From contig NZ_JAUSUP010000004.1 in NCBI RefSeq assembly GCF_030814115.1, positions 1-64,000 on the forward strand: a stretch of 64,000 nucleotides of DNA. Reading direction: 5' to 3'. A program made the position numbers and the translations under genes. This stretch comes from Alkalibacillus filiformis (GTDB taxonomy: Bacteria; Bacillota; Bacilli; Bacillales; Alkalibacillaceae). The notes under the pieces were generated by a model. The model was given only the letters and a program-made list of their open reading frames with translations, was not told the DNA's origin and made no database searches. Of the stretch, positions 58,953-63,993 are shown in pieces (position 1 is the stretch's first letter; every line of letters starts with the position of its first letter).

Positions 58953-59891
58953 GTGTCCTATAAAATATTGCTGAAACTAACCATTTTAAGTTTAATAGCA
59001 CTAGTTTTAATCGGTTGTGATGAAAAATTAACTGTCGATGATGTTGAAATTCCTGAAAAAAGTGAAGCCTTCTTTTGGGAAGCTGAGCATAATGATAAAA
59101 CGATTTACTTCTTAGGAACAGTGCATGCAGGTCATGAAGATATGTATCCGATGCGTGATGAGATTGAAGATGCTTTAAATGAAGTGGATTTACTTTTAAG
59201 TGAATATAATGAGTCGAATTATGAAATACAATCTGAATATGAAGAGATAAGAAGAAATTATAGATATTTACCGAGTGGTGAGCAGTTATCGGACTATTTA
59301 AACGACGAAAATATGGATGTAGTTAGAGAAATTGAAACAAATCTTAACATCCCTTTTTTCGCTTTAAATTCAATGAAGCCTTGGGCTGTAGAGCAGATGT
59401 ATGAGTTTTTATTATTAGAAGGGTATTCTGATTATACGTATGAAGATGGAGTAGAAGGCTACATTTATAATCGTGTTTTGGATCAAGCTGAAGGCATGGC
59501 TTTAGAAGATTACGAGACAAGTTTAAAAGCTGTGCGTGATCGGGACATGGATTATCAAATTTACTTCCTAGAACAGACACTAAACTATTCGCAAGAAGAT
59601 ATCGAGGAATACTTGGAATCTGTAATCACAGCTTGGCGTACTGGAGAAGAGTCCCTTACCAATACTGATCGCAAAGTTAGCGAAGACGCAGAGTCAAAAG
59701 AAATAGAAGAAACTTATATTGAAGAGATACTATTCAATCGTGATATACTAATGGCGAAGAAGATTGATGAAGTCGTTCACAATCATGAAGCAGACACAAT
59801 CATGGTTGCGGCTGGTTTTGCCCACTTCTTCGGACCTGGCAATATTCTTGAATTACTTGAGGAAAAAGGATATGAGATCGAACGTAGATAA
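58953..59891 (+). CDS. TraB/GumN family lipoprotein
   Basis: 312 aa. Signal peptide with lipobox LIGC, then the TraB/GumN fold: YFLGTVHAGHEDMYPM at the start (conserved GTxH) and RDILMAKKID plus MVAAGFAHFFGPGNILELL at the end. The conserved His and Glu residues suggest a metal-dependent hydrolase of the erythromycin-esterase/Tiki type. GTG start after GGGGAGAG. In PrgY relatives the role is pheromone degradation, worth noting beside CamS and the PapR-like peptide. Confidence 0.82.
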   Translation: MSYKILLKLTILSLIALVLIGCDEKLTVDDVEIPEKSEAFFWEAEHNDKTIYFLGTVHAGHEDMYPMRDEIEDALNEVDLLLSEYNESNYEIQSEYEEIRRNYRYLPSGEQLSDYLNDENMDVVREIETNLNIPFFALNSMKPWAVEQMYEFLLLEGYSDYTYEDGVEGYIYNRVLDQAEGMALEDYETSLKAVRDRDMDYQIYFLEQTLNYSQEDIEEYLESVITAWRTGEESLTNTDRKVSEDAESKEIEETYIEEILFNRDILMAKKIDEVVHNHEADTIMVAAGFAHFFGPGNILELLEEKGYEIERR

Positions 59892-61820: not shown

Positions 61821-62696
61821 ATGAACTACGGCCAAACGTTTTGCGATTTAAGGGAAAATAAAGGGTATACACTGAAGGAAGTATCAGAAGGTATTGTTTC
61901 TGTTTCGTTTTTATCGAAATTTGAAAGAGGCGAATCTGAGATTTCAATCCAGCACATACACGCTTTATTAGACCGTTTGAGAGTGACTTTCGAGGAATTT
62001 CTGTATTTTCATAACAACAATCAACCTTCTGAGTTTGAAGCTTTTTTCAATCAAGCTCATGAACTTTACTTAAAAAGAGATCTAAAAAGTCTACAAAAAT
62101 TGTATGAAGAACAAATGGCGTTATGGGAGAAGTACAAAGTGAAGCCATATCGATGTCAGGCTGTCTTATTAAAAATCTATGAAAATATAATTAGGGATAA
62201 AATGATTGATGACGAACGAGATGGTCTAAAAGAATTAATTGATTATTTATTTAATGTTGAAGTTTGGACACTGTACGAACTACGACTATACAGTAAAACA
62301 ATTCTTGTACTAGATGAGAAGATGATTGAAACACTTTCTAAAACAGCTTATAAGAAAAGTAAACAAGGTTTGCCGAAAGTAAGGGAAACAGTGAACAATA
62401 TTTTGCTGAATACGATTGTGTACTTAATAGGTCCAGTAAACCAACCTAAAAAACTAGTGAACGAACAATCCATTCAATACTTCTTTGAAACGGTAGAGGG
62501 GAATTGTTTAGAAACAGATCTATTATTAAAAACGAACATTATGCAGTTAAAAGGAATGTATGAAGTGAAGAAAGGTAATCGAGATGATGGCTTGGAAATG
62601 GTGAACCGGGCAATAGAAGTGTTTAAAGACTTACAAGCTCCACATTTAGCAAAAGATGCCGAGCGTTATTTAAGCTTAATGTTAAAGTGCCGGTAA
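61821..62696 (+). CDS. Rgg/GadR/MutR family transcriptional regulator
   Basis: 291 aa: an XRE helix-turn-helix (about residues 5-60; TLKEVSEGIVSVSFLSKFERG) and a helical repeat domain that in Rgg proteins binds short peptides. AGGAGTG lies before the ATG. It is divergent from an amidohydrolase gene, 87 bp apart, and may regulate it. I found no SHP-like short peptide gene next to it. Rgg proteins of Bacillaceae are poorly studied. Confidence 0.85.
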   Translation: MNYGQTFCDLRENKGYTLKEVSEGIVSVSFLSKFERGESEISIQHIHALLDRLRVTFEEFLYFHNNNQPSEFEAFFNQAHELYLKRDLKSLQKLYEEQMALWEKYKVKPYRCQAVLLKIYENIIRDKMIDDERDGLKELIDYLFNVEVWTLYELRLYSKTILVLDEKMIETLSKTAYKKSKQGLPKVRETVNNILLNTIVYLIGPVNQPKKLVNEQSIQYFFETVEGNCLETDLLLKTNIMQLKGMYEVKKGNRDDGLEMVNRAIEVFKDLQAPHLAKDAERYLSLMLKCR

Positions 62697-62787: not shown

Positions 62788-62821
62788 TAAAAAGCAACGG
62801 GTGTTTAACCCGTTGCTTTTA
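62788..62821. terminator. Bidirectional terminator between rgg and the PlcR-like gene
   Basis: AAAAGCAACGGGT / ACCCGTTGCTTTT perfect stem. Confidence 0.9.
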
Positions 62822-63700
62822 AACAGATTCGTGTTCTTGAAAGGTTTGGATGTCGTGCTCAATGATCTTGGAAAGGTTATCCTTGCCTTCTAGTTCAAAT
62901 AAAAATTTCGCTTTTTTCCAGTAGTCTATACCTTTTTCGGTTTTTCCTTGCATTAATAAGTTACGACCAATTTGGTAATGAAATTCTGCAAATGTAAATA
63001 AGTCTTCATACTCACGACAGTATGATAAACCTTGATAACAAACTTCTAAGGATTTATTAACTTCATGCAAATCACTATACACCTTTGCAAGATTATATCT
63101 AACTTTTGCAGTAATTCTTTTATCTTTAAGGTTAGTAAATTGGTTTATTAAATCATAAGCTTGTTCATGGTAGTCTTTTGATTCATTCAACAAGCCTTCA
63201 TCACGATACATAATCCCTAAACTATTTAAAATTTGAATATTTATCTCGGCAGAAAACCTGTCGAAAGAAGATAATGTTAAACAGTCTTTTAAGGTGTTAA
63301 CAGCTGCATCGAAATCATTGTGGAGATAGTATTCAGCCATAGAGCGGTGCCACATTAGAGACCGATGTTCTGGTTGAGATTTAAACAGTGGGTTTTTCAT
63401 CTCGGTTTTTACAATGTCTTCTATTGTTTCATAGTCACGGTTTCTTCTAGCTTTTTCAAGTTGCGACCAAACTTCATTTAGGTAGTCTTCGCGTTCGCTG
63501 TCTGAATCCGATAAAAAATAAGTAATGTAAACACCCAATTTATCAGCAATCCCTTTCAAGGTCATATACGATGGCTGATGTTGATCGCGTTCTATTCTAC
63601 TAAGTTCAGATTGTGAACAAACTCCATTGGCAAGGCCTGCTTGTGAAACATCTAGTCGTTTCCGCAGATCTTTAATTTTTTCTCCTAGTGATAAATTCAT
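62819..63700 (-). CDS. PlcR-like RNPP quorum-sensing transcriptional activator
   Basis: 293 aa. An N-terminal XRE helix-turn-helix (LGEKIKDLRK, then CSQSELSRIERDQHQPSYMT) is followed by about five TPR repeats, with KVRYNLAKVYSDLHEVNKSL matching the PlcR TPR core. Length and layout are those of B. cereus PlcR (about 285 aa). AGGGAGAG precedes the ATG at 63700; the longer frame reads through its own promoter. A palindrome at 63716-63731 and a divergent propeptide gene at 63874 complete a peptide-pheromone circuit. Confidence 0.85.
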   Translation of the reverse strand: MNLSLGEKIKDLRKRLDVSQAGLANGVCSQSELSRIERDQHQPSYMTLKGIADKLGVYITYFLSDSDSEREDYLNEVWSQLEKARRNRDYETIEDIVKTEMKNPLFKSQPEHRSLMWHRSMAEYYLHNDFDAAVNTLKDCLTLSSFDRFSAEINIQILNSLGIMYRDEGLLNESKDYHEQAYDLINQFTNLKDKRITAKVRYNLAKVYSDLHEVNKSLEVCYQGLSYCREYEDLFTFAEFHYQIGRNLLMQGKTEKGIDYWKKAKFLFELEGKDNLSKIIEHDIQTFQEHESV

Positions 63701-63715
63701 GGTTCTCTCCCTTTT

Positions 63716-63731
63716 TATGCAAAAACGCATA
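63716..63731. promoter_or_regulatory. PlcR-box-like palindrome
   Basis: TATGCAAAAACGCATA. The PlcR box consensus is TATGNAN4TNCATA; only one position differs (C for T). It lies 16 bp upstream of the regulator start, downstream of its predicted promoter, which would fit autoregulation. Confidence 0.6.
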
Positions 63732-63788
63732 TTTTTTTTAAAAAAGCATGCAAATGAGTGAATATTATGTATAGAACTCTTCAAACCT

Positions 63789-63817
63789 ATTATAGTCATC
63801 TTTTAAGCGTTTTTACA
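63789..63817 (-). promoter_or_regulatory. Promoter of the PlcR-like gene
   Basis: On the minus strand, TGTAAA, 17-bp spacer, TATAAT. Its -35 occupies the same bases as that of the divergent promoter. Confidence 0.5.
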
Positions 63818-63840
63818 AATCTCTTGTCAACGTAGATAAT
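63812..63840 (+). promoter_or_regulatory. Promoter of the propeptide gene
   Basis: TTTACA, 17-bp spacer, GATAAT; each box has one change from consensus. Confidence 0.6.
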
Positions 63841-63873
63841 GTACATAGATTGATTGAGGGAGGTGTAGAAACG

Positions 63874-63993
63874 ATGAAAAAGTTATTAGTCCTAACTATT
63901 CTTCTAGGTGCTATTTTCGGTCTTACCCCAACTGAAACAGCAGTAGAAGATAGTGAACCAGTTACTGTATTAGATTTACCTGGTTTACACTAA
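63874..63993 (+). CDS. PapR-like quorum-sensing propeptide
   Basis: 39 codons with GGAGGTG upstream. MKKLLVLTILLGAIFGL is a Sec signal; an acidic linker (ETAVEDSEP) leads to the C terminus TVLDLPGLH. B. cereus PapR (48 aa) has the same plan: MKKLL signal, a TALE-S-like linker, and a C-terminal pheromone ADLPFEF, so DLP is shared at the same place. Predicted: secretion, extracellular trimming to a C-terminal hepta- or octapeptide, import by an oligopeptide permease, and binding to the TPR domain of the divergent regulator. Confidence 0.8.
   Translation: MKKLLVLTILLGAIFGLTPTETAVEDSEPVTVLDLPGLH

Follow-up and report, generated by a model that had tools for sequence, protein, structure and literature searches.

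Among the closest described peptide-signalling systems is the PlcR-PapR pair of the Bacillus cereus group, in which papR lies 70 bp downstream of plcR and the regulator's target, the PlcR box, is given as TATGNANNNNANCATA in PMC4147580. The same source states that the gene for a related receptor, plcRa, is not autoregulated. RNPP receptors carry a strictly conserved Asn (PMC3601957), and the contacts of PlcR to the glutamate of PapR are described as Lys89, Gln237 and Tyr275 (PMC6568020). As to distribution, one survey reports PlcR predominantly in Bacillus, with 141 hits (PMC9765709), and another treats PlcR as one cluster (PMC10075063).

Here we describe a divergent gene pair of Alkalibacillus filiformis on contig C4 of its 2.7-Mb genome (labelled G000); the first 64,000 nucleotides of this contig, which contain the pair, are referred to as the window. 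The pair very probably constitutes a peptide quorum-sensing system of the PlcR branch of the RRNPP family. Genomes used for comparison include A. aidingensis (G001) and two records of A. haloalkaliphilus (G003 and G004), in all of which the pair is present.

Results

Layout of the gene pair

The regulator gene (293 codons and a stop) and the peptide gene (39 codons and a stop, encoding MKKLLVLTILLGAIFGLTPTETAVEDSEPVTVLDLPGLH) are arranged head to head. Their coordinates, lengths, strands and sequences agree with those of the preliminary description (Table 1).

Table 1. Features of the receptor-peptide locus, in window coordinates.
Feature	Position	Strand	Remarks
PlcR-type receptor/regulator, 293 aa	62819..63700	-	N-terminal HTH, C-terminal TPR domain; assigned by Pfam, phmmer, profile and fold
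Recognition helix QSELSR of the receptor	residues 30-35	-	within the N-terminal HTH
Palindrome TATGCAAAAACGCATA, TATG-N8-CATA	63716..63731	.	between receptor promoter and receptor start codon
Predicted receptor promoter TTGTAA-18-TATAAT	63789..63818	-	conserved in three species; -35 overlaps that of the peptide promoter
Predicted peptide promoter TTTACA-17-GATAAT	63812..63840	+	conserved in three species
Propeptide gene, 39 aa	63874..63993	+	signal-peptide-like N terminus, acidic linker, C terminus VLDLPGLH
Codons of LDLPGLH, likely mature pheromone region, ends inferred	63970..63990	+	C-terminal core conserved in 8 close-clade loci

Family, fold and groove of the receptor

The sequence of the receptor identifies it as an HTH-TPR protein of the PlcR type. 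Pfam recognizes HTH_3, TPR_12 and RNPP_C domains (the last with 68 bits, E 8.1e-19) and no Rgg_C at E up to 1, and the best phmmer match in the PDB is PlcR (2qfc), a protein that also has 293 residues (E 2.8e-16). With a 20-member profile PlcR scored 139.5 bits (1.3e-39), whereas, within the best 60 of 206 matches, Rap chains reached ~32 bits (about 1e-6), ComR (31 bits) and Rgg matched in the HTH part, and AimR, PrgX and NprR did not occur. An AlphaFold2 model from a 4-row alignment (mean pLDDT 78.9) was good in the TPR part and poor in the HTH part (pLDDT about 45-55). Among the matches listed, it came closest to PlcR-PapR 2qfc (Z 26.3, 2.5 Å, 223 residues), ahead of unrelated TPR proteins (up to Z 22.1), Rap (20.1) and NprR (17.7); AimR and PrgX were not among the fold matches listed (50 rows, 50 entries). 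The preliminary reading of the regulator as PlcR-like is supported.

The preliminary description had named a grouping with Rap, AimR or PrgX as evidence that would speak against PlcR. Rap and Rgg/ComR in fact fall far below PlcR by sequence, and Rap and NprR below it by fold, with AimR and PrgX outside the matches listed in either comparison. We consider it highly improbable that the receptor is a member of a different RRNPP branch (Rgg/ComR, Rap/NprR or AimR) and is PlcR-like in length alone. TPR folds are admittedly alike, as the Z scores of Rap, NprR and the unrelated TPR proteins illustrate, and AimR and PrgX contribute no score among the matches listed; yet PlcR alone tops both the profile search (best 60 of 206) and the fold comparison (matches listed), the C-terminal domain is RNPP_C and not Rgg_C, and the length is that of PlcR and not of the longer nine-TPR receptors. 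The tree leaves this reading some room: among 45 proteins, nine near-copies having been dropped beforehand, the window receptor fell into a clade of eight (97/90) with L008, L010, L027 and L044-L047, while PlcR sat unplaced on a long branch, its grouping with the window clade not being rejected (p-AU 0.062).

Within the PlcR-type assignment, the expected peptide contacts were retained in part. Asn201 of PlcR, which we take to be the anchor of the peptide backbone, corresponds to Asn203 of the receptor and is Asn in 8/8 clade members. The position of Asn159, presumably involved with Asn201 in PapR binding, is occupied by Asn in the window receptor and by Cys in A. haloalkaliphilus. By contrast, the residues at the PapR-glutamate contacts have changed, Lys89 to Arg88, Gln237 to Glu239 and Tyr275 to Leu276; Lys87, another position tied to PapR, is Arg86. 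Since the peptide also has Leu in place of the PapR Glu, the details of peptide recognition are likely to differ from those of PlcR-PapR. The recognition helix, QSE[LIV]SR, is common to PlcR and the eight clade receptors; other receptors have mainly QAQISK or QAYIS, and L049/L050 have QSLISQ.

The peptide gene and its inheritance with the receptor

By its sequence, the divergent gene encodes a small propeptide of the secreted type, and its inheritance and loss go hand in hand with those of the receptor. The PapR layout originally attributed to it is kept in relatives; secretion was judged from this layout and from hydropathy. Both A. haloalkaliphilus records and that of A. aidingensis contain an orthologue, the peptide endings in these species being ...VEDNNDPITVLDLPDLH and ...VQDLDDRTVTVLDLPGQH. 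Codon comparison shows protein-level constraint across the entire gene, the C terminus TVLDLPxxH included, and in the last nine codons the window differs from A. aidingensis by six synonymous and two non-synonymous changes (pS 0.86, pN 0.10). Because the gene is kept in relatives and synonymous change in these codons far exceeds non-synonymous change, it is not a chance reading frame. The core D[LF]P[GD][LQ]H is present at the C terminus in all eight close-clade loci. This conservation supports the core of the pheromone that had been proposed, LDLPGLH, although the exact mature form is a guess.

Receptor orthologs (78-80%) were found in four of six Alkalibacillus genomes, that of the window among them, and a direct search located the peptide gene in the same four and in neither of the two receptor-less genomes (G002 and G005). 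It also gave no match in G021, G236 and G258, which have diverged peptides of their own. In G002 and G005 a TraB-type gene adjoins pepF, and the genes for the receptor, the peptide and the 116-aa lipoprotein as well as the 100-aa gene are all missing from the interval; gat genes follow pepF directly, without tldD/E there. This empty site indicates that the pair is part of a module gained or lost whole. The 116-aa lipoprotein has weaker relatives elsewhere (7/22 family genomes at 0.001) and strong matches only at this locus. We saw no sign that the Alkalibacillus pair lies on a mobile element; viral contigs yielded one distant relative (27% identity), and eight plasmid records matched at 1e-20.

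The flanks of the module are a TraB/PrgY-type lipoprotein gene at 58953-59891 (+) and the gene for oligoendopeptidase F (pepF; L007:2987-4819, -). Both protein families have links to peptide pheromones. That these genes, with TldD/E, might serve to control the pheromone was considered and dropped; G002 and G005, although devoid of the pair, keep the TraB-type gene next to pepF, so this adjacency is not specific to the pair. Genes for TldD/TldE-type metallopeptidases lie behind pepF (L007:4995-7731; contig C4 66994-69730) in G000, G001 and G003. On the other side of the receptor, and convergent with it, is a second HTH-TPR regulator gene, of the Rgg/GadR/MutR type (61821-62696, +; Rgg_C 4.7e-31), which occupies the same place in A. 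haloalkaliphilus (L104) and not in A. aidingensis (L103). The convergent genes are separated by a hairpin at 62790-62820, AAAAGCAACGGG...CCCGTTGCTTTT, by eye a two-way terminator.

Predicted promoters and a putative PlcR-box-like operator

The -35 hexamers of the two predicted promoters overlap (63812-63818), as the preliminary description had recognized. Three species share an unchanged TTTTACAA and an unchanged receptor -10, and their peptide -10 is almost constant. Support for the promoters comes from this conservation, because a consensus scan alone did no better than shuffles (four sites against a shuffle mean of 3.8).

Downstream of the receptor promoter lies a palindrome of the form TATG-N8-CATA. 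It is present upstream of the receptor in 8/8 clade members, with 15-32 bases between its end and the first aligned codon of the receptor, and in 0/24 other head-to-head regions; the other 18 of the 50 loci, being near-copies or differently oriented, did not enter this comparison, nor did L048. In mononucleotide shuffles the motif arose in 131/16000. As the eight members are related, this conservation does not amount to eight independent events. The symmetrical form TATGNAN4TNCATA, adopted from the preliminary description for the scans, is matched exactly in L027, L044, L045 and L046 and with one mismatch in the window.

Whether the pair itself acts at this palindrome deserves scrutiny. We regard it as rather unlikely, though a reading of real weight, that another regulator binds there or that the sequence is part of a core promoter, the pair acting elsewhere. 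Located ~50-65 bases inside the predicted leader of the receptor transcript, the site is unusually placed for a PlcR-type activator. A comparable palindrome (TATGCTACAATGCATA), found ahead of a lipoprotein gene, shares bases with a -10-like box, and the box is lacking upstream of L106, a Rossellomorea plasmid receptor that carries the QSE helix (nor did any peptide ORF near it pass). Against this, the half-sites and the distance between them are those published for the PlcR box, and the position is fixed. Moreover, the inner bases vary among the eight members while the half-sites are invariant, and in clades that have different recognition helices the same place is taken, by eye, by different palindrome-like sequences. 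We treat the palindrome as a putative operator of the receptor.

A box-defined regulon was also sought and not upheld. In G000, TATGCN6GCATA gave three sites against four in the reversed control, and TATGNAN4TNCATA five against six, no excess. For the latter form, counts of sites and control sites were 6/2 in G001, 6/7 in G003, 9/3 in G021, 10/6 in G236 and 17/6 in G258 among the other genomes with the receptor, compared with 6/2 in G002 and 4/5 in G005, which lack it. No clear excess is thus tied to the receptor, G258 and G021 perhaps excepted; since the window operator itself deviates from the exact box, a scan for exact sites leaves room for a looser regulon. The anticipated box-like site does stand before the receptor in all eight close relatives, but without an excess of exact sites in the window genome.

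Besides the receptor's own, seven sites were noted in G000, five of them inside ORFs, one on C5 before a lipoprotein gene and one on C19 between ORFs. The C5 palindrome, TATGCATTGTAGCATA (G000:C5 131678-131693; L092:1479-1494), is also present in G003 and G004; in G000 and G003 it precedes the lipoprotein gene, and it overlaps a -10-like box. In another genus (G236 and G258), a second exact box follows directly 3' of the receptor gene; between it and ywhD are ~200-300 noncoding bases that include a hairpin and a conserved C-rich segment (L097:5270-5570, L098:5784-6098), a candidate for a regulated small RNA. In G095 a second exact box (L102:5300-5315) separates two divergent genes, one encoding a secreted 183-aa protein and the other a lipoprotein, at a distance of 0.9 kb from the receptor. 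The second boxes of G236, G258 and G095 suggest small local targets.

A candidate RNA block behind the peptide gene

Just beyond the window, about 125 bases past the peptide stop, lies a conserved block (contig C4 64118-64204; L007:2119-2205). Over ~75 bases it is predicted to form two hairpins, a small one with the loop UCACCUC, a sequence also present in the anti-Shine-Dalgarno tail of 16S rRNA, and a strong one with a 5' arm, CAUCCUCCUUAA, that has complementarity to strong Shine-Dalgarno sites. Among 22 family genomes a 24-base pattern with up to three mismatches retrieved the block only at this locus, in exactly the four genomes with the pair. The surrounding 233 bases (L007:2000-2232) fold better than shuffles (z -3.3; 2/200 shuffles as good). 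In the strong hairpin 12 bases of the 5' arm, CATCCTCCTTAA, are kept, and two changes in the 3' arm give G-U partners; the consensus fold of three sequences contains no double-sided change, and one outer pair is lost in A. aidingensis. Identity between the window genome and A. aidingensis is 76% in the block, 71% in the receptor gene and 19% in the stretch before the block. None of five loci matched Rfam at the gathering score, and inspection by eye of the 260 bases that follow the peptide gene at five other clade loci revealed no copy of the block.

A standard terminator can be set aside: the terminator scan found none, and the T run begins six bases past the stem. As no strong promoter directly precedes the block, it may be made within the peptide mRNA; a weak promoter-like site (9/12) at the end of the peptide gene (L007:1985-2014) would also allow a transcript of its own. 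By analogy, the pheromone transcript could double as a regulatory RNA, so that one quorum-controlled transcript would carry both the signal and an antisense-type regulator, an idea that we put forward as speculative and quite unlikely. RNAIII of Staphylococcus is an analogue of a quorum-controlled transcript with a regulatory-RNA role.

Distribution across the order

At 1e-25 a receptor homologue was found in 19/22 family genomes, in G002, G005 and most others a more distant one (~25-33% identical). Across the order, PlcR-type receptors were detected at 1e-30 in 152 of 397 genomes sampled, representing 54 of 136 genera. We examined 50 receptor loci, which were the best matches returned and not a random sample. 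With one ORF filter, a signal-peptide-like small ORF was found within 600 bp at 46/50 loci, compared with 51/1000 shuffled flanks; candidates ending in [LF]P plus three residues occurred at 29/50 loci, compared with 1/1000. When near-copies were removed, 38 of 42 loci retained a candidate and 22 of 42 one with the [LF]Pxxx end. The peptide of L046, missed by the filter, was found by eye and raises the count to 47/50. At the other three loci (L041, L062 and L065) the receptor is present and no peptide gene was found. The expectation that the peptide is kept wherever the receptor is kept therefore holds for 8/8 close relatives but not for these three of the 50.

Among the codes of these peptides are ADFPDQH, QDLPDQH, EDLPHRH, ELPSLF, ELPTIF and ELPNEY; some are repeated, ELPGLY twice (L057), ELPGVH three times (L067) and ELPSVY five times (L052/L053). 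The five-copy propeptides (L052:1034-1282, L053:1032-1280) adjoin PlcR-type receptors. In other clades of the window's own family the peptides end in DPGPxx- or DLGxxD-like sequences.

These comparisons bear on a further reading, in which the receptor is of the RRNPP type and the divergent small protein is a secreted effector or the receptor's target instead of a pheromone. Small secreted proteins often are targets, the pheromone role of the peptide is a predicted one, and conservation of its first 24 residues is no lower than that of the last nine (pN 0.00 vs 0.05 for A. haloalkaliphilus, 0.08 vs 0.10 for A. aidingensis). We nevertheless judge this reading improbable: the adjoining peptide keeps its layout across very different receptors, whether its end is of the [LF]P type or of the DPGP or DLG type, the repetition of the C-terminal code within some propeptides (L052/L053, L067, L057) is expected of pheromones, and the C terminus resembles ADLPFEF of PapR. 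A pheromone thus remains the preferred role for the peptide.

With receptors in 54/136 genera and a candidate peptide at most of the loci examined, PlcR-type pairs are ordinary outside the B. cereus group. Novelty on that account, as claimed in the preliminary description, is not supported, the more so as a PlcR clade of Bacillaceae has already been published (PMC12700828). That the Alkalibacillus pair is a further case of the known, widespread PlcR-type pheromone pairs is well supported.

Discussion

By analogy with PlcR-PapR (PMC4147580), the Alkalibacillus propeptide would be exported. Extracellular processing would then leave a short C-terminal peptide, about LDLPGLH with the core DLPGLH, for re-import by an oligopeptide permease; five SBP_bac_5 (OppA-type) binding proteins of the genome scored over the cut-off. 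Bound in the TPR groove, the peptide might alter the binding of the receptor dimer to TATG-N8-CATA sites. At the site in its own leader, the only one with good support, the receptor would most likely block its own transcription and/or act on the divergent peptide promoter. Such a roadblock or an effect on the peptide promoter is likelier than classical activation of the receptor gene, because of the depth of the box within the predicted leader. The most probable near output is the peptide transcript together with what follows the peptide gene, namely the RNA block and the small lipoprotein gene; a large regulon is less probable.

Our results show PlcR-type peptide signalling to be widespread in the order and yield concrete pheromone candidates with related codes, many of them [DE]LPxx[HYF], outside the pathogens for which PlcR is known. 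Within one clade, receptor, recognition helix, operator and peptide form a natural series, by which the specificity of peptide and DNA recognition could be dissected in bacteria that are harmless. If the linked RNA is functional, it would represent a new coupling of an RRNPP signal to post-transcriptional control.

Computed RRNPP pairs like the one described here have been assembled over many Bacillota with RRNPP_detector, as a PlcR cluster and 21 novel clusters (PMC10075063), and RRNPP receptors of a PlcR clade of Bacillaceae also figure in FoldTree (PMC12700828). The main texts of PMC10075063 and PMC9765709 do not name Alkalibacillus, and a full-text literature search returned, among the texts it covered, no prior report naming this pair. 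TprA-PhrA of Streptococcus is also counted among the closest known systems. Akin to our pair, PlcRa-PapRa7 (CSIPYEY) of the B. cereus group combines a PlcR-like receptor with a peptide gene, papRa, located upstream of plcRa; its mature peptide is internal, whereas that of Alkalibacillus is presumably C-terminal (PMC4147580 for PlcRa-PapRa7). PlcR-PapR itself differs from the Alkalibacillus pair in gene order (papR downstream of plcR in the same direction, as opposed to head to head), in the peptide end (PFEF of ADLPFEF as opposed to PGLH), in the location of the box, which in Alkalibacillus is the receptor leader, and in its regulon of 45 genes, of the like of which the exact-box scan gave no sign in Alkalibacillus. 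What the two have in common is a 293-aa HTH-TPR receptor with RNPP_C and the closest fold, a C[SH]QSE-x-SRIE recognition helix with TATG-N8-CATA half-sites, and a propeptide with a Sec-type N terminus and a C-terminal DLP core.
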